Source: Rhodospirillales bacterium BBD 1991-14 (lineage in GTDB: Bacteria > Pseudomonadota > Alphaproteobacteria > Kiloniellales > Kiloniellaceae). Taken from it: 64,000 nucleotides of DNA. Made by a program: the position numbers and the translations under genes. The stretch is taken from assembly GCA_001657395.1 (NCBI GenBank), contig LYSY01000007.1, positions 62,001 to 126,000 of the forward strand, in the 5' to 3' direction. The notes under the pieces are model-generated. The model was not told where the DNA came from. It worked only from the letters and a program-made list of their open reading frames with translations, and did no database searches. Below, one piece after another: positions 11,698-25,339 of the stretch; within the stretch, counting starts at the first letter, position 1; every line of letters starts with the position of its first letter.

Positions 11698-12570
11698 ATG
11701 CCCGATCAGACCGAATCAGCAGAGCACACAGCGCAACTCCCCGAAGCGGCGATCGCCGCGTTTCAGCGAGACGGGGTCGTCTGCCTGCGGCAGGCCTTTG
11801 ACCGGCGCTGGCTGGAGCTGCTTGATCAGGGCATCTCGGAAAACCTGAGGAATCCAAGTCCGCGCCAAGAAGTTCGCCGTGCCCAGGGCAACCAGGAGGG
11901 GCCGCGCTACATAGAGGATTTCTGGGTCTGGGCGGACTTCCCGGCCTTCGAAACCTTCGTGCGTCAGTCGCCGGCCGCAGGCCTGGCGGCCCAACTGCTG
12001 GGCGCACACCGGATCAACCTGGTGATGGACAACTGGTTCCTGCGCGAGACCGGCTCCTCGGCCCGGCCGCCATGGCACCATGACATCTCCTATTTCGACT
12101 TCGAGGGCAGCATGTGCGTGCTCTGGCTGCCGCTGGAGGCGACCAGCAAGGCGGAGGGGATTTCCTTCGTACGCGGCTCGCACCTCTGGAACCGCCTTTT
12201 TATGCGCACTTTCTTCGCCGATCACCGCCCTGCCGCCGCGCCGGGGATGGTCAACGGCAAGCTCTACGAGGCGCCGCCGGATATCGATGCCAACCCGCAG
12301 GACTACGAGCTTCTGTCCTTCGATTGCGCAGCCGGCGACTGCATTTTCTTCGACATGCGCTGTCTGCACGGTGCTCTTTCAGCCCACACGCCGGATCAGA
12401 CGCGGCGGCGCTACACCCTGCGAATGGCCAAGGAAGACGCGCGGATCCGCTACCGCGGGGACTGGGCCAAACAGGAGCGTGCCATCATGGAAGCCGCCGG
12501 CCACCGCGAAGGCGACGCCCTGGTGAGCGAATTCTTTCCGACCCTCTGGGAAAAGGCGGCGGACGGCTAG
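11698..12570 (+). CDS. Phytanoyl-CoA dioxygenase-family protein (PhyH)
   Basis: A 290-aa Fe(II)/2-oxoglutarate-dependent oxygenase. The metal triad is visible as HHD (PPWHHDISYF) and the distal His (MRCLHGALSAH), with an Arg after it (RRYTLR) to hold 2-oxoglutarate. N-terminal FQRDGVVCLRQAF is the usual PhyH opening. Such enzymes hydroxylate lipids, ectoine or small natural products; this one lacks the ectoine-hydroxylase context. It stands alone upstream of the BCCT operon (gap 211 bases). A substrate among betaine-like osmolytes would fit the neighbours but is a guess. Confidence 0.85.
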   Translation: MPDQTESAEHTAQLPEAAIAAFQRDGVVCLRQAFDRRWLELLDQGISENLRNPSPRQEVRRAQGNQEGPRYIEDFWVWADFPAFETFVRQSPAAGLAAQLLGAHRINLVMDNWFLRETGSSARPPWHHDISYFDFEGSMCVLWLPLEATSKAEGISFVRGSHLWNRLFMRTFFADHRPAAAPGMVNGKLYEAPPDIDANPQDYELLSFDCAAGDCIFFDMRCLHGALSAHTPDQTRRRYTLRMAKEDARIRYRGDWAKQERAIMEAAGHREGDALVSEFFPTLWEKAADG

Positions 12571-12781: not shown

Positions 12782-14371
12782 ATGCTTTTCAAGAATCCCG
12801 TCCTGATCATTTCCGTCGGACTCAGCGCCATCATCGGTATCTGGAGCGTCGTCTCACCTGATGACGTGACCGGCGCCGCCGTCGCCCTGACCAGCGGTGC
12901 GCTGGAGTACCTCGACTGGCTGTTCATGCTCACCTGCACAATGTTCGTCTTCCTCGTCGTCTACCTGGCGATCACCCGCTACGGCGAGATCAAACTGGGC
13001 AAGGACGAAGAGGAGCCGGAGTTCTCGACGGCCTCGTGGATCGCCATGCTGTTTGCCGGCGGCATGGGCTCGGGCCTGCTGTTCTGGGGCGTGGCCGAGC
13101 CGATGTACCACTTCTACTCGCCGCCGGGCATGGACGGGGAGACCGCGGAAGCCGCGCGCATGGCCTTCGTCATCACCAACCTGCACTGGGGATTTCACGC
13201 CTGGGCGATCTACGGCGTCTGTGCGCTGGTCATCGCCTATTTCGTGTTCCGCAAGGACGCCCCCTCGATGGTCTCGACGCCCATCGAATACGCCCTGCGC
13301 CCTCTGCTCGGCGACCGCGCGACCGGCGTCATCTCCGTGACCTCCGACGTGCTGGCGGTCATGGCGGTGGTCTTCGGGCTTGCCGGCTCGCTCGGCATGG
13401 GCACCCTGCTGGTGCGCTCGGGCCTGGCAGAGGTCTTCGGCACCGACCCGGCGTCGCTCACCGTGGCCATCGGCATCCTGGTGGTGATGACCATTGCCTT
13501 CCTGCTGTCCGCCTGTACCGGCGTCGACAAAGGCATCAAGATTCTTTCCAACCTCAACATGGTGATCGCCATCGTCATCATGCTGGTGGTGCTCTTCGCC
13601 GGTCCCACGACCTTCATCTTCAACGCCTTCGTGAACTCCATCGGCGACTATCTCAGCCAGTTCATCTTCCTGTCGTTCCGCATCTTCTCCTATGACGACT
13701 CGCTGCGCGGCTGGACCCACGGCTGGACCCTGACCTACCTCATCTGGTGGATCGCCTGGGGCCCCTTCGTCGGCATCTTCATCGCCCGCATCAGCCGTGG
13801 GCGCACCATCCGCGAGTTCTGCATCGGCGTCGTCATGGTGCCGACGATCTTCTCCATGCTGTGGTTCGCCGTCTTCGGCGGCGCCTCGGTCTACATCGAG
13901 ATGAACGGCGGCGGCGGCCTGGCGGAGGTGGTCTTCGAGGACGTCACCAAGGCGCTTTTCACCTTCTTCAGCTATCTGCCGGGCACCGGTTTGCTGAACA
14001 TTCTGGCGGTCATCCTGATCTTCGTCTTCCTGGTGACCAGCGCCGATTCCGGAACCTTCGTGGTTTCCATGATGACCACCCGGGGCAATCTGAACCCGGA
14101 TGTGCGCACCAAGCTGCTCTGGGGCATCATCATGTCGGCCATCACCTTCGGCGTGCTGGTCTCCGGCAGTGTGACGGTGGCCAAGGCGATGGCGATCACC
14201 GGCGCCATACCCTTTACCTTCATCGTCTTCTTCCAACTGGTCGGGTTCTTCCGAGCCTTGAGAGAGGACGAGTCGCCGGAGAACCGCGACCTTCGCATGG
14301 CGCGGCGTATGGCGCATGCCCAGGCTCAGGCCCAGGGCCAGGCGCAGCCCGGCGGCGGATCGGCGGATTAA
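12782..14371 (+). CDS. BCCT-family betaine/carnitine/choline transporter
   Basis: A 529-aa secondary transporter of the inner membrane with twelve expected helices. Family marks: MFAGGMGSGLLFWGVAEPM, with the glycine-rich helix TM3, and the signature WTLTYLIWWIAWGPFVGIF with the TM8 tryptophans that make the substrate box, followed by ARISRGRTIREF. GMGSG indicates a Na+-type binding segment as in BetP. The cytoplasmic C-terminus is short and Gln/Ala-rich, not the long basic osmosensory tail of BetP. The start at 12782 follows GGGGGG; earlier in-frame ATGs add a polar non-conserved leader. It is first in a three-gene operon with a fused binding protein (15-base gap) and a UspA protein. Confidence 0.9.
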   Translation: MLFKNPVLIISVGLSAIIGIWSVVSPDDVTGAAVALTSGALEYLDWLFMLTCTMFVFLVVYLAITRYGEIKLGKDEEEPEFSTASWIAMLFAGGMGSGLLFWGVAEPMYHFYSPPGMDGETAEAARMAFVITNLHWGFHAWAIYGVCALVIAYFVFRKDAPSMVSTPIEYALRPLLGDRATGVISVTSDVLAVMAVVFGLAGSLGMGTLLVRSGLAEVFGTDPASLTVAIGILVVMTIAFLLSACTGVDKGIKILSNLNMVIAIVIMLVVLFAGPTTFIFNAFVNSIGDYLSQFIFLSFRIFSYDDSLRGWTHGWTLTYLIWWIAWGPFVGIFIARISRGRTIREFCIGVVMVPTIFSMLWFAVFGGASVYIEMNGGGGLAEVVFEDVTKALFTFFSYLPGTGLLNILAVILIFVFLVTSADSGTFVVSMMTTRGNLNPDVRTKLLWGIIMSAITFGVLVSGSVTVAKAMAITGAIPFTFIVFFQLVGFFRALREDESPENRDLRMARRMAHAQAQAQGQAQPGGGSAD

Positions 14372-14386
14372 GGGGGGAGAGGAACA

Positions 14387-16333
14387 ATGACCAGATCAAG
14401 CAGAACCGCCGCCCTCGCCCTCGTTCTCGCCGCCAGCCTCGGCCTTGCGGCCTGCGCGGAAGAAGACGCGAAGATCGTGCGCGTCGCCTCGAAGAACTTC
14501 ACCGAAAACATGCTGATGGCCGAGATGATGGCCCGCATCGCCGAAGAGGACGGCCTGGCGGTGCAGCGGGCCATCCCCTACGGCTCCTCGGCGGAAACCT
14601 TCGAGGCTCTGAAGCAGGGGCGCATCGACCTCTATCCGGAATACAACGGGACCGGCCTGGTCTACCTCGGCCAGCCGCCGATGACCGACGGCGATGCGGC
14701 CCTGGCACGGGTGCGCGAGCTCTATGGCGCCCTCGAGCTGGATTGGCGCGAGCGCCTCGGCTTTTCCAGCGACTACGTGCTGGTGGTCCGCCCGGAGGTC
14801 GCCCAGGCCCAGGACATCGCCAGGATCAGCGATCTCGCGCAGTTGGAGAGCGTCGACTTCGCCACCGACGATACCTTCGTCGAGCGCCCGCTCGACGGCC
14901 TCAACCCGCTGGTGCGGCGCTACGGGCTGCGGCCCGGCAAGGTTCTGACTTACAGTCTCGACGAGGGCGGCAAGGACGCCATCGCCCAGGCGGTGCTGGA
15001 AGGCGACGCTCTCGTCGGCGAGCTGTTCCGCACCGACCAGCAGATCGACAGCTTCGACCTGGTGGTTCTGCAGGACGACCTCGCCTTCTTCCCGGTCTAC
15101 GAGCCTTCCCCGCTGGTGCGCCGCGAGGCGCTGAACCGCTTTCCCGAACTGGGGCCCGCGCTGGCAAAGCTGGAGAATAAGCTGACCGCCGACGCAATGC
15201 GGGAGATGATCGCCGAGGTCGAGTTGGAGGGACGCAGCGTGGCCGCTGTCGCCTTCGACTATCTTGTCGCATCAGGCCTGCTGCAGGCGGCATCAGAAGC
15301 GGGCGACACCGGCGGCGGCGGGGCCGATCCGCTGGTGGTAGCGATGGGCGAGCTGGACTCGCTCGCCGGGCCGGCCGGAAAGGCCGTGCGCGCGGCGCGC
15401 AGCGTCTTTCCCAAGCGCTCCGTCATCGTCGAGCGGGCCCCCAACCCGCTCGATCTCGTCACCTCCGGGGCTGCACGCCTCGCTGTGGCCGGCGTCGACT
15501 CCTTCTACGAGGTCGAGGGCGACAGCGCCATGCTGACCAGCCCGGCCGAGGCCCTGGGTGTGGTCGGCTTCCAGGTGGCCCATGTGATCACCCGCGAGAA
15601 CGGCCCGGCCGGCCTGGCGGAGGTCGGCAAGCTGGGCGTCGGGCAGGCCGGCTCCTCCTCCGACCGGGTGGCGCGCATGGCCCTCGCCGGCATCGGGCTG
15701 GCCGAGGTGAATGTGGTCGCCGGCCAGGATGCGGAACTGGGAATCCAGTTCGAGGCCATGGCCAAGGGACTGGTGGACGCCCTGTTCGTCATGGCCCCGC
15801 TCGGCGACACGGCGGTGCTGGAGCTGCTCGAAGGCGGCTCGTTCAAGCTGCTGCCGATCCCGGGCTGGACCGAAGGCAACGCGCCGCTGCGTTTTTCCTT
15901 CCTGCGTCAGATCCAGATCCCGCAGGGCACCTACGACGGCCAGCAGGCCGCCATCGAGACGCTCGGGGTGCAGATGGTGCTGGCCGGTCCCTCCGGCGGA
16001 CGGGAAGCTTTCGGCGCGCAGGGCCCCGGCACCACCGGCACGGCGGCCACGCAGCCCTTGCCGGCCTCCACCGTTCAGGAGCTCGCCAAGGCTCTGGGTT
16101 CGGCCGAGGCGGTCGACCCGGCGGCGCCGGCCGCCGCCGCTCTCAGGCCCACGCTCGACGAAGGCCCGCAGCCGCTCGTCGCCGACCCGGCGACCTCGCT
16201 GATCAACCTCGTCGCCAGCCTGTTCCTGGTCTGGATGGTCTATCTCTTGGTTGCCAGACCGCGGCGCGCGCCGGATCAGCCCAGCGACATCCGCATAACA
16301 CCGGCCAGGTCGGCCGACAGCACCGGCGAGTGA
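14387..16333 (+). CDS. Fused OpuAC + TAXI double binding protein with membrane anchor
   Basis: A 648-aa exported protein. Residues 1-21 look like a lipoprotein signal (LGLAACAEE, Cys ~22). Residues ~28-295 are a glycine-betaine/choline ABC-type binding domain (OpuAC/OsmX kind: VASKNFTEN, DLYPEYNGTGLVYLG). After a Gly-rich linker (~305) residues ~313-545 match TAXI-type TRAP receptors (KLGVGQAGSSSDRVA, MAKGLVDALFVMAPLGDT, QIPQGTYDGQQAAIETLG). A Pro/Ala linker leads to one helix (LINLVASLFLVWMVYLLVA, ~605-623) and a short basic cytoplasmic tail. No ABC or TRAP membrane subunit is nearby: its neighbours are a BCCT carrier and a UspA protein. It may feed or sense ligand for the BCCT; that is inference. 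Confidence 0.75.
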   Translation: MTRSSRTAALALVLAASLGLAACAEEDAKIVRVASKNFTENMLMAEMMARIAEEDGLAVQRAIPYGSSAETFEALKQGRIDLYPEYNGTGLVYLGQPPMTDGDAALARVRELYGALELDWRERLGFSSDYVLVVRPEVAQAQDIARISDLAQLESVDFATDDTFVERPLDGLNPLVRRYGLRPGKVLTYSLDEGGKDAIAQAVLEGDALVGELFRTDQQIDSFDLVVLQDDLAFFPVYEPSPLVRREALNRFPELGPALAKLENKLTADAMREMIAEVELEGRSVAAVAFDYLVASGLLQAASEAGDTGGGGADPLVVAMGELDSLAGPAGKAVRAARSVFPKRSVIVERAPNPLDLVTSGAARLAVAGVDSFYEVEGDSAMLTSPAEALGVVGFQVAHVITRENGPAGLAEVGKLGVGQAGSSSDRVARMALAGIGLAEVNVVAGQDAELGIQFEAMAKGLVDALFVMAPLGDTAVLELLEGGSFKLLPIPGWTEGNAPLRFSFLRQIQIPQGTYDGQQAAIETLGVQMVLAGPSGGREAFGAQGPGTTGTAATQPLPASTVQELAKALGSAEAVDPAAPAAAALRPTLDEGPQPLVADPATSLINLVASLFLVWMVYLLVARPRRAPDQPSDIRITPARSADSTGE

Positions 16334-16351: not shown

Positions 16352-16804
16352 ATGACAAAGAAAGTACTGGTTCCCATCGACCTGGAACACAAAAGCTCCT
16401 GGGCCAAGGCGCTGCCCAACGGCGTCGATCAGGCCCGCATCCTGGGGGGCGAGGTCTGGCTGATGACGGTCGTCCCGCACATTCCATCCGGGATCGATTG
16501 GCGCTATGCCATCCGCGGCGAGGAGCACGGCTCGATCGACTATGACGTGAAGGAGTTCGTCAAACAGGCCGAGGGGCGTTTGAAGGAACTGGCAGGCGAG
16601 CTGATTCCCGACGATCTCTTCGGCGGCATCATCGCCGCGCACGGGACGATCTACGAGAAGATCGTCGAAGCGGCGGAACAGATCGGCGCGGATCTGATCG
16701 TCATGGCCGCACACCGCCCCTCGCTGAAGGACTATCTGCTCGGCCCCAACACGGCGCGGGTCGCCCGCCACGCACCCTGTTCGGTGCACATCGTGCGCGA
16801 CTGA
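16352..16804 (+). CDS. UspA-family protein
   Basis: A 150-aa single-domain universal stress protein: KKVLVPIDLE at strand 1, LIVMAAHRP and the nucleotide-loop region LLGPNTARVARHAPCSVHIV at the end. The usual GxxGx9GS/T nucleotide loop is reduced (GPNTA instead of GSVA-S), so ATP binding is uncertain. It is third in the BCCT operon (18-base gap, strong GGGGGAGG). The ectoine TRAP system of Halomonas has an analogous UspA regulator (TeaD), so a regulatory role on the adjacent transporter is plausible. Confidence 0.85.
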   Translation: MTKKVLVPIDLEHKSSWAKALPNGVDQARILGGEVWLMTVVPHIPSGIDWRYAIRGEEHGSIDYDVKEFVKQAEGRLKELAGELIPDDLFGGIIAAHGTIYEKIVEAAEQIGADLIVMAAHRPSLKDYLLGPNTARVARHAPCSVHIVRD

Positions 16805-16825: not shown

Positions 16826-18190
16826 TCAGCCGCGCGCGTCCTGCAGTCCGTAGAAGCCGTAGGCCGCCGCCAGGTAGGCCTTGCGCAGGAACGGCAGTGG
16901 AAAGCGCGGCAGCGGCGCGCGCAGCACCGCCGGCAGGGCCTCGGCCCCCTGACGCCCGGCGACCAGGGCGGCGAGCGCCCGCCCGGCATAGGCGGTAAAG
17001 GCAACGCCGTTGCCGTGATAGGCCAGGGCGGCGAAGAGCCCCGCCTCCCGGCCCCCGCCACGCCCCTCTTCCAGGGCGCCGACAAAGGGCACCAGCGGTT
17101 GGCTGAGACAGACCAGCCCGCGCCAGAAGAACTCTGTCTCAACCTCACGCCACAGAGGAAAGTGCCGCTCGAAAGCATGGCGCAGGCGCTGCGCACCGCG
17201 CTCTGCGGCCGCCGGAGAGCCCGACACCCCGCCGCGCCCGCCAAAAAGAAAGCGACCGTCCGGCAGCAAGCGGAAGTAATGCAGCAGCCGGCGGCTGTCG
17301 GCGCACATGGTGGTGGCCGTCCAGCCCTGCGCCGCCCGTTCCGCTTCGCTCAGGGGCCGGGTGACCAGGATGTTGGAGAGCACCGGCAGCAGCCGGCCCG
17401 CCAGCCCGGGCAGGCGCTGCTCCTCACTGTAGCCGTTGGTGGCGATGATGACCTTGCGCGCCGAAAGCCGGCCTTGCGGCGTGACCAGCAGGAAACCGGC
17501 AGCGCTGCGTTCCACGGCGAGGACGGGCGAGTTGCCGAAAACCCTGGTCCCGGCGTCGATCGCAGCACGCGCCAGGCCGCGCAGGTACTTCAGCGGATGA
17601 AGGCCGGTGCCCAGAGGAACCAGGAAGCCGCCGTGAAAGCCGCTGGCCGCGAGCCCCCGCCCGGCAAGGTCCGCAGGCGACAGGATCTGGCAGTCGAGAC
17701 CGAAGAGCCGGCGCAGGGTCTCCTGCTCGGCGCGCATCTCCGCCAGCCGGCCGGGACGGTGGGCGAGGACGATCTCGCCTTCGCCCGTCAGGTCCGCTGC
17801 GATGCCGCGGCTGGCGCAGAAATCCTTCACGAGGTCGATGGCCTCTACCTGGGCCTGGAAGAAGCGGCACGTCTCCTCGCGGCCGTAGCGGCGCTCCATG
17901 GCACCATAATCCAGCTTCGCCCCACCCAGACAGCAGAAGCCGCCGTTACGCCCGGAGGCGCCCCAGCCGGGGGTCCCCGCCTCCAACACCGCAACATCCA
18001 TACTGTCTTCCTCGGCGAGGCACAGCGCCGCCGTCAGGCCGGTGTAGCCGGCGCCGATGACGGCCACATCGCAGGCCGCCTCACCGGCCAGGGCGGGTGT
18101 CTCGCGGTCCAGCGGCGGGGCCGAAGCCTCCCAGTAGCTGCCGACCGCTGCCGCACGGTCGTAGAGGCTGGCGTGATAGAGACGGCTCAT
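16826..18190 (-). CDS. FAD-dependent amine oxidase, DAO family (PuuB/OrdL-like)
   Basis: A 454-aa flavoprotein. Dinucleotide-binding motif VIGAGYTGLTAALCLAE near residue 44, then GWGASGRNGGFCCLG, the subfamily mark of gamma-glutamylputrescine oxidase-like (OrdL) enzymes. It oxidises a secondary or primary amine, giving imine and H2O2 or reduced carrier. It converges with the UspA gene (21-base gap). Substrate could be a polyamine derivative or an N-methyl amine; context with betaine transport is suggestive only. Strong start: MSRLYHASLYDRAA, typical of OrdL-like N-termini. Confidence 0.8.
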   Translation of the reverse strand: MSRLYHASLYDRAAAVGSYWEASAPPLDRETPALAGEAACDVAVIGAGYTGLTAALCLAEEDSMDVAVLEAGTPGWGASGRNGGFCCLGGAKLDYGAMERRYGREETCRFFQAQVEAIDLVKDFCASRGIAADLTGEGEIVLAHRPGRLAEMRAEQETLRRLFGLDCQILSPADLAGRGLAASGFHGGFLVPLGTGLHPLKYLRGLARAAIDAGTRVFGNSPVLAVERSAAGFLLVTPQGRLSARKVIIATNGYSEEQRLPGLAGRLLPVLSNILVTRPLSEAERAAQGWTATTMCADSRRLLHYFRLLPDGRFLFGGRGGVSGSPAAAERGAQRLRHAFERHFPLWREVETEFFWRGLVCLSQPLVPFVGALEEGRGGGREAGLFAALAYHGNGVAFTAYAGRALAALVAGRQGAEALPAVLRAPLPRFPLPFLRKAYLAAAYGFYGLQDARG

Positions 18191-21611: not shown

Positions 21612-22652
21612 GTGTCAGATGCTGCTGATCTCTTGATTGCCAACGACATTCCCTCGGAGGCTTCCACGCTTGACCTGGCAAGCGTGGAGGTCTCCGCCAA
21701 AAGCTTCCTCGGCCTGGCGCAGCCGTCATGTCTGACAGAGACCCTGCGTTTGCGGCTCACCGACCAATGCTATCTGCCTAAGGCCGATGCCCCCTTGCGG
21801 GACTGGGTTGCCCGGGTGGCCTGTCCGGCTTTCCTGGCTTACCGCCGCAAGCACCCGGAAGCCGCCGCGGCGCTCAGGCGGTTCTGCACAATCGGCACCG
21901 GCGCCGGGCTGGACGCCCTGGCCGCAGCCGAGGTGCTGAAACCATCCATGATCGCGGTCACCGACCTGCACCGCGCCGTGGTCGACCAGGCCATGGCCAA
22001 CGTTCTTGCAAATCTGAAGCGGCCGGAGAGCGTCATCCTGCGCAGCGGTGTGGGCGATCTGCTCGCACCTTTCGCCGGCAGCGGTCTCCGCTTCGATCTG
22101 ATCTACGAGAACCTTCCGAACATTCCACTGCCCGCAGACATCTCCCTGGAAGACGGGCAGGCCAGCGCCAGCTTCATCGCGCCGCGCGGCGAAGCCGTTC
22201 CGCCGCTGGCCCGCGACTTTCTGCTGGACCTGCACATCGCCTTCCTGCTGCAGGCGCGCGGCTTCCTCAGCCCCGGCGGCACGGTCCTTTGTTCCATCGG
22301 CGCGCGTCTGCCCCTGCGCGCCGTGCTGCGCAGCTTTGCCGCCGTGGACTTCAGCGCCGAGATTTTGCTCTACAGCTGGAAGATCCAAAGCGAGGCCGAA
22401 GAGGTGATCGGCGGTTATGCCGAAGCCCAGGAAGACGGGCACGGCCCCTTCCACTTCTACCTGGCCGAGGACCTGGATGCGGCCTTCGCCGGCGCAATCC
22501 CGGTGCAGTCCACCAGCGAGGCGCTGGCCCTGGAAAGCGCGCTGGCGCCGAAGCGGATCGATCCGGCCAGCGCCCTCAAGCTGCACCGGGCGGGCAGAAC
22601 CGTCGGCCATACCGCAGCCGTGATCGAGGGACAGCCAACCGCAGGGAGTTAA
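21612..22652 (+). CDS. SAM-dependent methyltransferase
   Basis: A 346-aa class I methyltransferase. SAM motif I is FCTIGTGAGLDALAAAE (about residues 91-107), and the post-IV segment DLIYENLPNIPLP holds an N-x-P-N variant of the NPPY-type motif used by N- and small-molecule methyltransferases. The C-terminal half (HIAFLLQARGFLSPGG, HGPFHFYLAED) faintly recalls methionine S-methyltransferase-like domains. GTG start at 21612 with AGGAG eight bases upstream. Third in the operon with the NAS-like and LysE genes (96-base gap), so it probably modifies the chelator or supplies its precursor. Its stop overlaps that of the convergent ATPase gene. Confidence 0.7.
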   Translation: MSDAADLLIANDIPSEASTLDLASVEVSAKSFLGLAQPSCLTETLRLRLTDQCYLPKADAPLRDWVARVACPAFLAYRRKHPEAAAALRRFCTIGTGAGLDALAAAEVLKPSMIAVTDLHRAVVDQAMANVLANLKRPESVILRSGVGDLLAPFAGSGLRFDLIYENLPNIPLPADISLEDGQASASFIAPRGEAVPPLARDFLLDLHIAFLLQARGFLSPGGTVLCSIGARLPLRAVLRSFAAVDFSAEILLYSWKIQSEAEEVIGGYAEAQEDGHGPFHFYLAEDLDAAFAGAIPVQSTSEALALESALAPKRIDPASALKLHRAGRTVGHTAAVIEGQPTAGS

Positions 22653-23485
22653 GAGCCGGCGTTGCGCCGCCGCGGCACGCCGACGCGTGGGACCGCGGCG
22701 AGAAGCGCCTGGGTGTAGGGATGTTGGGGGGCGTTGAAGACGGCTTCGACGCCCCCTTCCTCCACCACCTCGCCGTGGCGCATGACCGCCACCCGGTCGG
22801 CGACATGGCGGACGACGGCAAGGTCGTGGGAGATGAAGAGGTAGCTGAGACCGAGGCGTTCGCGCAGGTCCATGAAGAGGTTCAGCACCTGGGCCTGCAC
22901 CGAGACGTCCAGCGCCGAGACCGGTTCGTCGGCAACGATGAGATCGGGATGGGTGATCAGGGCGCGGGCGATGGCGATACGCTGACGCTGACCGCCGGAG
23001 AACTCGTGCGGAAAGCGCTCCGCATCGCGCGGCTTCAGGCCGACGGAGTCCAGAACCTCGGCGATGCGCGCCTTGCGCTCGGCGGCGCTCACGCCGCTCT
23101 CCAGCGCGTCCAGGGGTTCGGCGATCGTCCAGCCGATCTTGCGCCGCGGGTCGAGCGAGCCGTAGGGGTCCTGAAAGACCATCTGGGCATGGCGCCGCAG
23201 GGCCCGCAGACCGGCCGGCGGCAGCGCGAAGACATCTTGCCCCATCATCTCCACCCGCCCGGCCGTCGGCCGCTCCAGCGCCAGGACGGTGCGCGCCAGG
23301 CTGGACTTGCCGCTGCCCGACTCGCCCACCACGGCCAGGCTCTCCCCTTTGGCGAGTTGCAGGCTGACGGCGTTCAGCGCCCGAAACCGCGGCGCCGGCG
23401 CGAGCAGGCGTTCGCGCGGCAGGGGGTAGTCGAGGGTGAGGCCCTCGACGCGCAGCAGCATGGGGGCCGTCGCGCCGGCCGTCAT
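22649..23485 (-). CDS. Dpp/Opp/Cnt-type ABC transporter ATPase, second subunit
   Basis: A 278-aa DppF/OppF-like ATPase: Walker A GESGSGKSS, Q-loop FQDPYGSLDPR, signature FSGGQRQRIAIAR, Walker B LIVADEP, and the C-terminal AVFNAPQHPYTQALL typical of the oligopeptide/nickel transporter branch. The start at 23485 overlaps the stop of the preceding ATPase by four bases (ATGA). Last gene of a five-gene importer operon. It lacks an obvious 4Fe-4S motif. Works as a heterodimer with the DppD-like subunit. Confidence 0.9.
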   Translation of the reverse strand: MTAGATAPMLLRVEGLTLDYPLPRERLLAPAPRFRALNAVSLQLAKGESLAVVGESGSGKSSLARTVLALERPTAGRVEMMGQDVFALPPAGLRALRRHAQMVFQDPYGSLDPRRKIGWTIAEPLDALESGVSAAERKARIAEVLDSVGLKPRDAERFPHEFSGGQRQRIAIARALITHPDLIVADEPVSALDVSVQAQVLNLFMDLRERLGLSYLFISHDLAVVRHVADRVAVMRHGEVVEEGGVEAVFNAPQHPYTQALLAAVPRVGVPRRRNAGS

Positions 23486-24468
23486 GCCGGCACCTCCGTC
23501 CCGTGCGGATAAAGACAGGCGACGCGGTGCCCGTCCTCCAGCACCCGCTCGGCCGGCGGGCCGGGCAGGCAATCGGGCGCCGCCCGCGGGCAGCGCCCGG
23601 CGAAGACGCAGCCCCGGGGCCGATGCTGCGGATCGGGTACACGCCCCGGGATGGTGGCCAGGCGCCGCCCCGCCGGCAGAGCCCTGTCCAGGGCATGGGG
23701 CGAGGCCGCCAGCAGTCCGCGGGTGTAGGGGTGGGCCATGCGCTCGAATACTGCCGCCGTGGTGCCGCGCTCCACCACGCAGCCGGCATACATCACCAGC
23801 ATGGAGGCCGTGTTCTGCCAGACCACGGCGAGGTCGTGGGTGATGAGCATCAGGGCCATGCGCGCCTCGACCGTGACATCGGCCAGGAGATCGAGGATCT
23901 CCACCTGGCTGGTCACGTCGAGGGCGGTGGTCGGTTCGTCAGCGATGAGAACCGCCGGGTCGCAGGCCAGGGCGATGGCGATCACCACGCGCTGGCGCTG
24001 GCCGCCGGAGAGCTGGTGCGGATAGAGCCCGGGCGCAAAGCGCGGCTGCGGCAGGCCGACCCGGTCCAGCAGCTTCACCGCCCGGGTCTCCGCTTCGCCG
24101 CGCCCGAGACCCAGGTGCCAGCGCAGCCCCTCGGCCACCTGGTCTCCGATGGTCTTCACCGGGTTGAGCGCCGTCATGGGTTCCTGAAAGACCATGGCGA
24201 TGCGCCGGCCGCGGATGTGGCAGAGCGCGTCCTCGTCCAGCGCCAGGAGGTCGCCGCCTTCGAAGAGGATGCGGCCTTCGGCCCGGGCCGCCGCCGGCAG
24301 CAACCCCATGACGGCCAGCGCCGTCATCGACTTGCCGCAACCGGACTCGCCGACGATCCCCAGCTGCTCGCCGGCCGCAAGGTCGAAGCTGACGCCGTCC
24401 AGCAGCGTCGCCGGCCCGTCGGGCGTTGCGATGGTGACGCGCAGATCCTGCAGGCTGAGCAGCGTCAT
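23482..24468 (-). CDS. Dpp/Opp/Cnt-type ABC transporter ATPase, first subunit
   Basis: A 328-aa DppD/OppD-like ATPase: Walker A GESGCGKSM, Q-loop FQEPMTALNP, signature [14 protein letters not shown], Walker B VLIADEP, and the family C-terminus with cysteines (GCVFAGRCPRAAPDC) that bind a metal or 4Fe-4S centre in DppD-type subunits. Start at 24468 lies seven bases after the permease stop. Part of the importer operon 22649-27851. Confidence 0.9.
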   Translation of the reverse strand: MTLLSLQDLRVTIATPDGPATLLDGVSFDLAAGEQLGIVGESGCGKSMTALAVMGLLPAAARAEGRILFEGGDLLALDEDALCHIRGRRIAMVFQEPMTALNPVKTIGDQVAEGLRWHLGLGRGEAETRAVKLLDRVGLPQPRFAPGLYPHQLSGGQRQRVVIAIALACDPAVLIADEPTTALDVTSQVEILDLLADVTVEARMALMLITHDLAVVWQNTASMLVMYAGCVVERGTTAAVFERMAHPYTRGLLAASPHALDRALPAGRRLATIPGRVPDPQHRPRGCVFAGRCPRAAPDCLPGPPAERVLEDGHRVACLYPHGTEVPA

Positions 24469-24475
24469 GACGTCC

Positions 24476-25339
24476 TCACCGCAACCGCCGCAGGCGCGGG
24501 TCCAGGAGGTCGCGCAGGCCGTCGCCCAGCAGGTTGAGGCCGAGGACCGTGACCATGATGGCAAGGCCCGGAAAGACCGCGAGTTGCGGGGCGATGAACA
24601 TGAGGGTCTGGGCCTCGTTCAGCATCTTGCCCCAGCTCGGGTTCGGCGGTTGGGTGCCGAGACCGAGATAACTCAGCCCCGCTTCAGCCAGGATCGCCAG
24701 CGCAAACTGGATGGTCATCTGGACGATCAGCAGGCTGGCGATGTTGGGCAGGATATGGTCGATGGTGATACGGGTGCGCCCGCGGCCCGCCACCCGCGCA
24801 GCCAGGACGAAGTCGCGCTTCCAGAGGCTGAGGGCCGCCGCGCGGGTCAGGCGCGCGAAGACCGGAATGTTGAAGATGCCGATGGCGATGATGGCGTTGA
24901 TCGCCCCGGGCCCGAAAAGCGCGGTGATCATCACCGCGGACAGCAGGGCGGGAAAGGCGAAGGTGAAGTCGTTGAAGCGCATCACGACCTCCTCCACCAA
25001 GCCGCGGCGGGCCGCCGCCAGGGCACCGAGCGGCACCCCGATGCCGGCGCCGATGCCGACGGCCACCAGGGAAACGGCGATGGAATTCACCGCCCCGGCC
25101 ATGATGCGCGACAGCACGTCGCGGCCGAACTGGTCGGTGCCCAGCCAGTGATCGGCCGAAGGCGGCTGCAGCTTGCCGGGTATGTCGATGACGCTGACGG
25201 CGTAGGGCGTCCAGACCAGCGACACCAGGGCCACCGCGATCAGCGTCAGAGTCACCGCGAGACCGATCATGAGGTTCGCCTGGCCGCGGCCGCGCTGCCA
25301 GTACTCGCGAAGGGCCGAGGGCTGTGTCTCAGACGACAT
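24476..25339 (-). CDS. Dpp/Opp/Cnt-type ABC transporter permease (DppC-like)
   Basis: A 287-aa membrane permease: N-terminal helix, HWLGTDQFGRDVLSRIMAGA, which is the DppC/OppC signature, then about five helices with the EAA-type loop (AARVAGRGRTRITIDHILPN). Overlaps the DppB-like gene by 11 bases, indicating tight coupling. Forms the translocation pore with the DppB-like subunit. Confidence 0.9.
   Translation of the reverse strand: MSSETQPSALREYWQRGRGQANLMIGLAVTLTLIAVALVSLVWTPYAVSVIDIPGKLQPPSADHWLGTDQFGRDVLSRIMAGAVNSIAVSLVAVGIGAGIGVPLGALAAARRGLVEEVVMRFNDFTFAFPALLSAVMITALFGPGAINAIIAIGIFNIPVFARLTRAAALSLWKRDFVLAARVAGRGRTRITIDHILPNIASLLIVQMTIQFALAILAEAGLSYLGLGTQPPNPSWGKMLNEAQTLMFIAPQLAVFPGLAIMVTVLGLNLLGDGLRDLLDPRLRRLR

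Follow-up and report, generated by a model that had tools for sequence, protein, structure and literature searches.

Why does a membrane-anchored protein that joins two receptor domains, one of the OpuAC and one of the TAXI type, lie directly behind the gene of a BCCT carrier? The locus was found in a window of 64,000 nucleotides (contig LYSY01000007.1 of Rhodospirillales bacterium BBD 1991-14), by which we mean the whole stretch of DNA analyzed. A first-pass annotation of the window, made from the letters without database searches, had read the protein as a fusion of an ABC-type and a TRAP-type receptor and had proposed that it is attached to the BCCT carrier, with a UspA regulator as in TeaABCD, in a new type of transport or osmosensing system. 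The receptor is the middle gene of a tight operon, whose three genes lie on one strand in the order BCCT, receptor, Usp, with the following features:

12782 to 14371, plus strand: BCCT-family carrier, 529 aa (Pfam BCCT, E 2.9e-168)
14372 to 14386, plus strand: 15-nt gap from the BCCT stop to the receptor start, with a purine-rich stretch resembling a ribosome-binding site (read directly)
14387 to 16333, plus strand: tandem OpuAC-TAXI receptor, lipoprotein-like, with a C-terminal membrane helix, 648 aa
14387 to 14455, plus strand: signal peptide and lipobox LAAC (Cys23), a lipobox-like motif by our own pattern
14471 to 15286, plus strand: OpuAC domain, residues 29-300, with a predicted betaine site of the AfProX type (Pfam, fold match, residue alignment)
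15287 to 15325, plus strand: low-confidence linker, residues 301-313 (pLDDT below 50 at 302-312)
15326 to 16126, plus strand: divergent TAXI domain, residues 314-580 (profile and fold match; glutamate determinants not found)
16187 to 16255, plus strand: C-terminal membrane helix, residues 601-623 (helix in the AlphaFold2 model; hydropathy peak)
16352 to 16804, plus strand: Usp-domain protein, 150 aa, UspF-like (Pfam Usp, E 2.1e-21)

Anatomy of the tandem receptor and its operon

The 648-aa reading frame exists exactly as annotated, and both halves of its product were identified by profile and by fold. Pfam OpuAC covers residues 31-293 (E 1.6e-45; 156.2 bits against a gathering score of 21.2). 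In the second half, residues 415-533 match Pfam NMT1_3 above its gathering score (E 4.8e-8) and NCBIfam TRAP_TAXI (TIGR02122) with E 6.5e-14, the 51.5 bits of the latter match lying below the cut-off of 84.35. Among solved structures matched by sequence, OpuAC-type chains cover approximately residues 30-299, and the TAXI chains 1us4 and 8u79 cover residues 387-533. An AlphaFold2 model of the receptor (14 sequences, mean pLDDT 75.7, pTM 0.48) consists of two alpha/beta domains joined by a weak linker and followed by the C-terminal helix at residues 601-623. Model residues 27-302 match ProX, OpuBC, EgtU and related receptors (Z about 28-33), while residues 312-579 match TAXI chain 1us4 (Z 20.0, rmsd 3.1, 243 aligned residues) and the further TAXI chains 8u79, 9ibo, 8s4j, 4ddd and 9ibp (Z 19.7, 19.6, 19.5, 19.1 and 17.0, respectively); the list of structure matches is made up mostly of OpuAC-half entries, so the lack of other folds in it is uninformative. 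Finally, hhalign aligned the second half with 34 TAXI-like reading frames of related genomes (98.6% probability, E 8e-16, 173 columns) over approximately residues 355-530, the first part of the TAXI domain lying outside the alignment.

The match of the second half to TAXI receptors, on which the earlier reading had been made to depend, was therefore found by profile, fold and hhalign alike, and the domain reading was right: an OpuAC and a TAXI domain are fused in one protein. Betaine-type OpuAC proteins belong to cluster F of the substrate-binding proteins (SBPs). The TAXI protein VcGluP is placed in SBP cluster F as well (PMC11574862). The two halves are thus of two different receptor types, as had been claimed, but not wholly unrelated ones. 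The description of the protein as lipoprotein-like and membrane-anchored was borne out by the lipobox LAAC (Cys23) and the hydrophobic C-terminal helix. A lipobox-like motif was present in all 21 members of the family with an intact N-terminus, and a C-terminal hydrophobic stretch was detected by hydropathy in 22 of 22. The lipobox, together with basic residues after the terminal helix, suggests that both ends of the protein reside in the inner membrane and that the two domains are periplasmic.

The gap between the receptor stop and the Usp start is 18 nt. The Usp protein matches NCBIfam UspF with E 1.6e-21, at 77 bits, below the cut-off of 166. The gene content is as first annotated: the BCCT-receptor-Usp operon contains neither an ABC permease or ATPase, the usual company of an OpuAC receptor, nor a TRAP membrane component adjoining the receptor. 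A gene for a PhyH-type dioxygenase lies upstream of the operon (11698-12570) and one for an FAD oxidase lies downstream on the opposite strand (16826-18190); neither was seen as part of the conserved set described below. Two ABC ATPase-like frames of the oligopeptide-importer type, identified from translation alone, lie outside the operon, about 6 kb downstream on the minus strand (22649-24564). Scans for promoters and terminators yielded nothing above shuffled sequence.

Conservation of the receptor and its pairing with a BCCT gene

Twenty-two loci of the tandem receptor were studied, from 20 genomes, Paracoccus aminovorans and Martelella NC18; they extend down to about 26% identity, span several alphaproteobacterial families and include two plasmids. 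Full-length relatives were found in 14 of 58 near relatives (own genome included, one truncated), 16 of 61 genomes of the order, two of 385 genomes sampled from the class (counting the source genome, with at most three candidates scored per genome), two of 398 genomes from the phylum (E up to 1e-60, at most three candidates) and four of 248 genomes of one further family (E up to 1e-100, at most five candidates); the last three counts may be too low because few candidates were scored per genome, and the draws overlap, giving 20 genomes in total. Across the class, the system is rare. Named records that carry the receptor are Pelagibius sp. (two MAGs), Pelagibius litoralis DSM 21314, plasmid IV of Paracoccus aminovorans and plasmids of Martelella sp. 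NC18/NC20. The trio is also present at the three named Pelagibius loci, which were excluded from the counts as probable repeats of counted genomes.

At each of the 21 loci that extend upstream of the receptor, a BCCT gene of the same orientation immediately precedes it, separated by -4 to 28 nt with the start codons that we chose; the contig of genome G049 begins inside the receptor gene and was excluded from the upstream and N-terminal counts. The trio is thus conserved outside this genome, the other point on which the first-pass annotation had staked its claim, with the BCCT gene in 21 of 21 loci and the Usp gene in 20 of 22. Tight linkage of a receptor gene to a secondary carrier gene, one mark of SBP-dependent secondary transporters such as TRAP, TTT and TAXI-GltS, accordingly holds at all 21 loci. 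In P. aminovorans, the BCCT match (L084:6395-7857) falls in two frames and is absent from the plasmid gene table, reflecting either a broken gene or a sequence error. No member was found in which BCCT and receptor form one polypeptide; two long frames, one in G803 (1266 aa) and one in G747 (1023 aa), were considered as fusions and rejected, as the BCCT match lies in another frame. A Gemmatirosa plasmid match, covering 61% of the Martelella receptor, was likewise set aside, being by eye an OpuAC domain joined to a permease-like stretch, with no BCCT. For the plasmid matches in Comamonas and Neorhizobium, the listed genes include no BCCT.

The pairing was compared with control loci. Neither a BCCT nor a Usp match was found in the flanks (about 1.5 kb per side, shorter at contig ends) of 39 control OpuAC-only loci or 30 TAXI loci that came out of the same searches. 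Conversely, a BCCT search of 59 genomes of the order, excluding G008 and G011, returned 92 hits, 14 with at least 45% identity and the other 78 with at most 43%. The receptor lies directly downstream in all 14 of the former. Thirty-six of the 78 were examined, with flanks of about 1.2-1.5 kb, and none had a receptor-domain match by tblastn or any of three profiles. In G049, a genome 69% complete, the receptor is present without a BCCT hit, the contig being cut at the gene.

A BCCT tree of 57 rows, built by a quick method, placed 20 of the 21 linked BCCTs in one group without unlinked rows (SH-aLRT 99), and the receptor-linkage label changes twice on this tree compared to a mean of 17 changes in shuffles. 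The exception, the BCCT of G036, clusters with 11 unlinked BCCTs on a long branch that may distort its placement. A single origin of all 21 linked BCCTs was rejected by the AU test (p 0.0009). Given these two results, the pairing does not follow one simple lineage; G036 may descend from an early pairing that its sister BCCTs later lost, or it may represent a pairing that arose a second time. Pairwise identities of BCCTs and receptors correlate with a Spearman coefficient of 0.91 over the 21 loci (the pairs are not independent), a value also expected from joint inheritance alone.

Since the OpuAC domain is closest to ABC receptors, the receptor might instead serve an ABC importer encoded elsewhere, adjacency to the BCCT gene providing only for shared regulation. 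Related permeases do occur in the genome: a Rhizobium ABC permease query gave 19 matches at E up to 0.01, the fifth of which (C8:38597) had E 6e-14. However, the best four of these map close to the genome's four other OpuAC genes, no more than about 3 kb away, and of its five OpuAC genes, that of the window receptor alone is known to adjoin a BCCT gene. The constancy of the BCCT partner also argues against this explanation, as does the lack of an ABC permease in two plasmid stretches (with an incomplete gene table) and in 20 flanking frames run against Pfam. We regard service to a distant ABC importer as very unlikely. The absence of an ABC permease from the operon, with a permease match close to each of the four other OpuAC genes, supports a receptor that assists the BCCT carrier.

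The third gene is less faithful. In 20 of the 22 loci, the receptor is followed by a Usp gene in the same orientation, within 71 nt (to the alignment start) in 19 of these and at 402 nt in G037, while no Usp match follows the receptor in G036 or Martelella. In G036, the frame after the receptor encodes a DUF454 protein (L094:3469-3993); in G023, a 348-aa protein with two Usp-domain matches is encoded on the other side of the BCCT gene (L096:8714-9757). Usp matches were also found beside five of the 36 receptor-free BCCT genes (L159, L165, L169, L171 and L174), all in one part of the BCCT tree, so that the Usp-BCCT pairing is wider than the receptor system. The TeaABCD cluster likewise includes a Usp gene, TeaD, and most of the loci do have the Usp domain in a transporter operon that marks a TeaD-like regulator. 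The idea that such a Usp protein is part of a receptor-linked machine found no support, however: absent from two receptor loci and present beside receptor-free BCCTs, Usp goes with BCCTs rather than with the receptor.

Predicted ligand sites of receptor and carrier

The best solved match to the family profile of the OpuAC half was AfProX, practically tied with designed sensors that derive from an OpuBC-type protein. The residues that we take to form the betaine site of AfProX (K13, Y63, T66, Y111, R149, Y190 and Y214) match the AfProX chain in letter and number at every position. Their equivalents in the window receptor are K36, Y86, T89, Y130, R167, F214 and Y238, an intact predicted site. 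Nineteen of the 21 full-length members retain all seven positions (214 being F or Y); G049 is outside this count for lack of its N-terminus. The exceptions are Martelella, with L at 214, and G036, the most distant member, with E, Q and V at 36, 167 and 214. The same seven residues occur in 22 of the 39 control OpuAC proteins, and F in place of AfProX Y190 in 20 of the 39; the set is therefore characteristic of ordinary betaine-type receptors and not peculiar to the tandem family. By inference from AfProX, K36 and R167 would favor a ligand that bears a carboxylate.

The TAXI half presents a different picture. In VcGluP, the key residues for glutamate are Y45 and Q93, which are found in 78% and 54% of TAXIs, respectively (PMC11574862), so that loss of one is not rare. 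In the tandem family, none of the 22 members has Q where the Q of the TAXI motif QSD aligns; we equate this Q with Q93 via the motif and not by direct alignment to VcGluP. Nor was a Tyr found in any of the members in residues 314-334, the expected Y45 region, which lies outside the residue-level alignment. A motif close to (V/I)(E/D)(T/S)LxxQxVLAG persists with few changes. The TAXI half thus did not prove to be a working receptor of the known glutamate type.

Could this half instead bind a second solute for the same carrier, so that both sites of the protein are live? Among ABC importers, GlnPQ is an example with binding domains in tandem, and the TAXI part remains alignable down to 25% identity. 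TAXI ligands other than glutamate, namely 2-oxoglutarate and phthalate, are mentioned in the TAXI-GltS report (PMC12344293). Set against these points are the absence of the known glutamate determinants from all 22 members and a mean pairwise identity, over 21 members, of 44% in the TAXI half compared to 52% in the OpuAC half, which makes it somewhat the less conserved of the two. Two live sites appear to us the least probable of the arrangements weighed here.

The carrier, for its part, appears complete. The BetP residues that we take to form the Trp box (W189, W194, Y197, W373, W374 and W377) and the Na2-type site (A147, M150, F464, T467 and S468) agree with the numbering of the BetP chain in the alignment. 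The Trp box of the window BCCT consists of W136, W141, Y144, W322, W323 and W326, and the equivalents of all five Na2-type residues are kept. The protein thus has the three marks of a BCCT carrier, the Pfam BCCT domain, the Trp box for quaternary amines and the Na2 site. All 21 linked BCCTs retain the Trp box, and each of the 20 whose Na2-type stretch is readable there retains its TS. Unlike BetP, with its GMGIG motif, the linked clade has GMGSG or GMGAG; the motif in G036 is GMGVG. Judged by these kept residues, the carrier would seem capable of binding both a quaternary amine and Na+ unaided.

This completeness gives weight to the main rival explanation, in which the receptor is a sensor or gate: periplasmic binding, relayed via the C-terminal helix, would tune the BCCT carrier without delivering substrate. 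A carrier that retains its own substrate and ion sites may need no receptor, the membrane helix follows the second domain of the receptor, and the usual third gene encodes a Usp protein, a family that is often regulatory. On the other hand, the OpuAC site is as in ordinary receptors, shared with more than half of the control proteins, and several members have only a very short cytoplasmic tail (ending RPDYR or RPERR), with no room for a signaling domain. The short tails speak against a classical signaling protein, though not against direct allosteric control of the BCCT carrier. On balance, we consider a sensor or gate rather unlikely.

A model for a receptor-assisted BCCT carrier

The findings presented above have led us to lean, if only narrowly, toward a receptor-assisted secondary carrier, in which the OpuAC domain captures a betaine-like solute for a Na+-coupled BCCT, with TAXI as spacer or dock and Usp as an accessory. 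The receptor would be anchored in the inner membrane, on the periplasmic side, through its N-terminal lipid and C-terminal helix. Its OpuAC domain would capture a carboxylated quaternary amine, such as glycine betaine, proline betaine, carnitine or a similar solute, and bring it to the neighboring BCCT carrier, which would then move it inward with Na+. The TAXI domain, without the known glutamate site, would most likely be a spacer or a docking module on the BCCT carrier, or alternatively may bind another solute. Usp would be an accessory protein, probably regulatory. The first-pass annotation had the receptor attached to the BCCT carrier: the genetic side of this claim stands, the gene pairing being strict, while physical contact and hand-over of the solute are parts of the model. 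The transport or osmosensing function suggested there is unsupported, and it is in this conditional form that we put transport forward. Several observations weigh against a receptor-assisted carrier: the BCCT looks complete for transport alone, no fused form was found and the system is rare; moreover, G036 has lost K36, R167 and the aromatic residue at 214, and its BCCT groups with unlinked ones.

A simpler explanation would dispense with contact altogether. A tethered receptor acting as a local scavenger would enrich the solute close to the membrane, and it would suffice for receptor and BCCT carrier to be expressed together, an arrangement that accounts for the gene pairing and the intact OpuAC site without a docking surface. 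It leaves unexplained why a second domain of SBP fold has been retained, with its motif kept and the known ligand residues missing, and we consider it quite unlikely.

The receptor-assisted carrier can be compared with several known systems. The ABC receptors ProX, OpuBC, OpuCC and EgtU (AfProX, 1sw1/1sw2) share with the OpuAC half the fold and, in 19 of 21 full-length members, the seven betaine-site residues, but the tandem protein differs from them in having a fused second SBP-fold domain, a membrane helix and a BCCT partner in place of an ABC permease and ATPase in the operon. TAXI-type TRAP transporters share the TAXI-fold domain; here, the TRAP membrane protein is absent and the TAXI half stays under the TRAP_TAXI cut-off. 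BetP shares the Pfam BCCT domain, the Trp box and the Na2-type residues. Known BCCTs, BetP among them, work without receptors, and they have the LeuT fold and are not elevators. TeaABCD resembles the locus in the Usp gene of its cluster, which here is found beside receptor-free BCCTs as well.

The closest published parallel that we found is TAXI-GltS of Bordetella pertussis (BP0403/GltS; PMC12344293). In that system, the receptor is likewise a long multi-domain lipoprotein with its TAXI domain toward the C-terminal side, there is no TRAP membrane gene, and the gene of a Na+ secondary carrier is tightly linked and directly upstream (PMC12344293); by analogy, this may be taken as support for a receptor-assisted BCCT carrier. 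The two systems differ in that the carrier there is GltS, modelled as an elevator type, and in that TAXI is the glutamate binder there, while the likely binder here is OpuAC and TAXI lacks the determinants; fused carrier forms are reported there, whereas none were found here (PMC12344293). The window system has, in addition, the C-terminal membrane helix and usually Usp. A term search of the text of the TAXI-GltS paper found no mention of BCCT or betaine (PMC12344293). No description of a BCCT with a receptor appeared among the titles and abstract openings returned by our literature searches, whose coverage leaves out many journals and all preprints.

Until TAXI-GltS was described, the secondary transporters known to use a soluble receptor were confined to the TRAP and TT classes, and its authors suggest that a feature of the elevator mechanism may be required, which further classes would test (PMC12344293, 2025). 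Given the fold of BCCT carriers, the BCCT-receptor operon is therefore a test case for this requirement. Our findings suggest that a carrier class not known to use receptors has acquired one. Going further, and with a confidence somewhat short of even, we propose tentatively a receptor-dependent transporter based on a BCCT, of LeuT fold and not an elevator, that arose when a lineage of alphaproteobacterial BCCTs captured an ABC-type betaine receptor fused to a disarmed TAXI dock. If this is true, dependence on a binding protein is not confined to elevator carriers, and the system would represent an intermediate stage in the coupling of receptors to carriers, and possibly a means by which marine bacteria take up betaine-like solutes with high affinity. 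The BCCT family has solved structures, among them BetP, a trimethylamine transporter, a high-affinity choline transport protein, DddT and L-carnitine/gamma-butyrobetaine antiporters.

The wider neighborhood, considered as a clue to the substrate, showed no gene shared across the loci in the genes and frames that were inspected. A PhyH-type dioxygenase gene does recur: in Pelagibius it precedes the trio, as in the window, and in G046 and, in part, G803 it lies close by (L098:7914-8654 and L090:16-504). The gene in G046 was missed by tblastn, so that absence of PhyH from other loci is not established, and a link between the recurring dioxygenase and the solute is possible.
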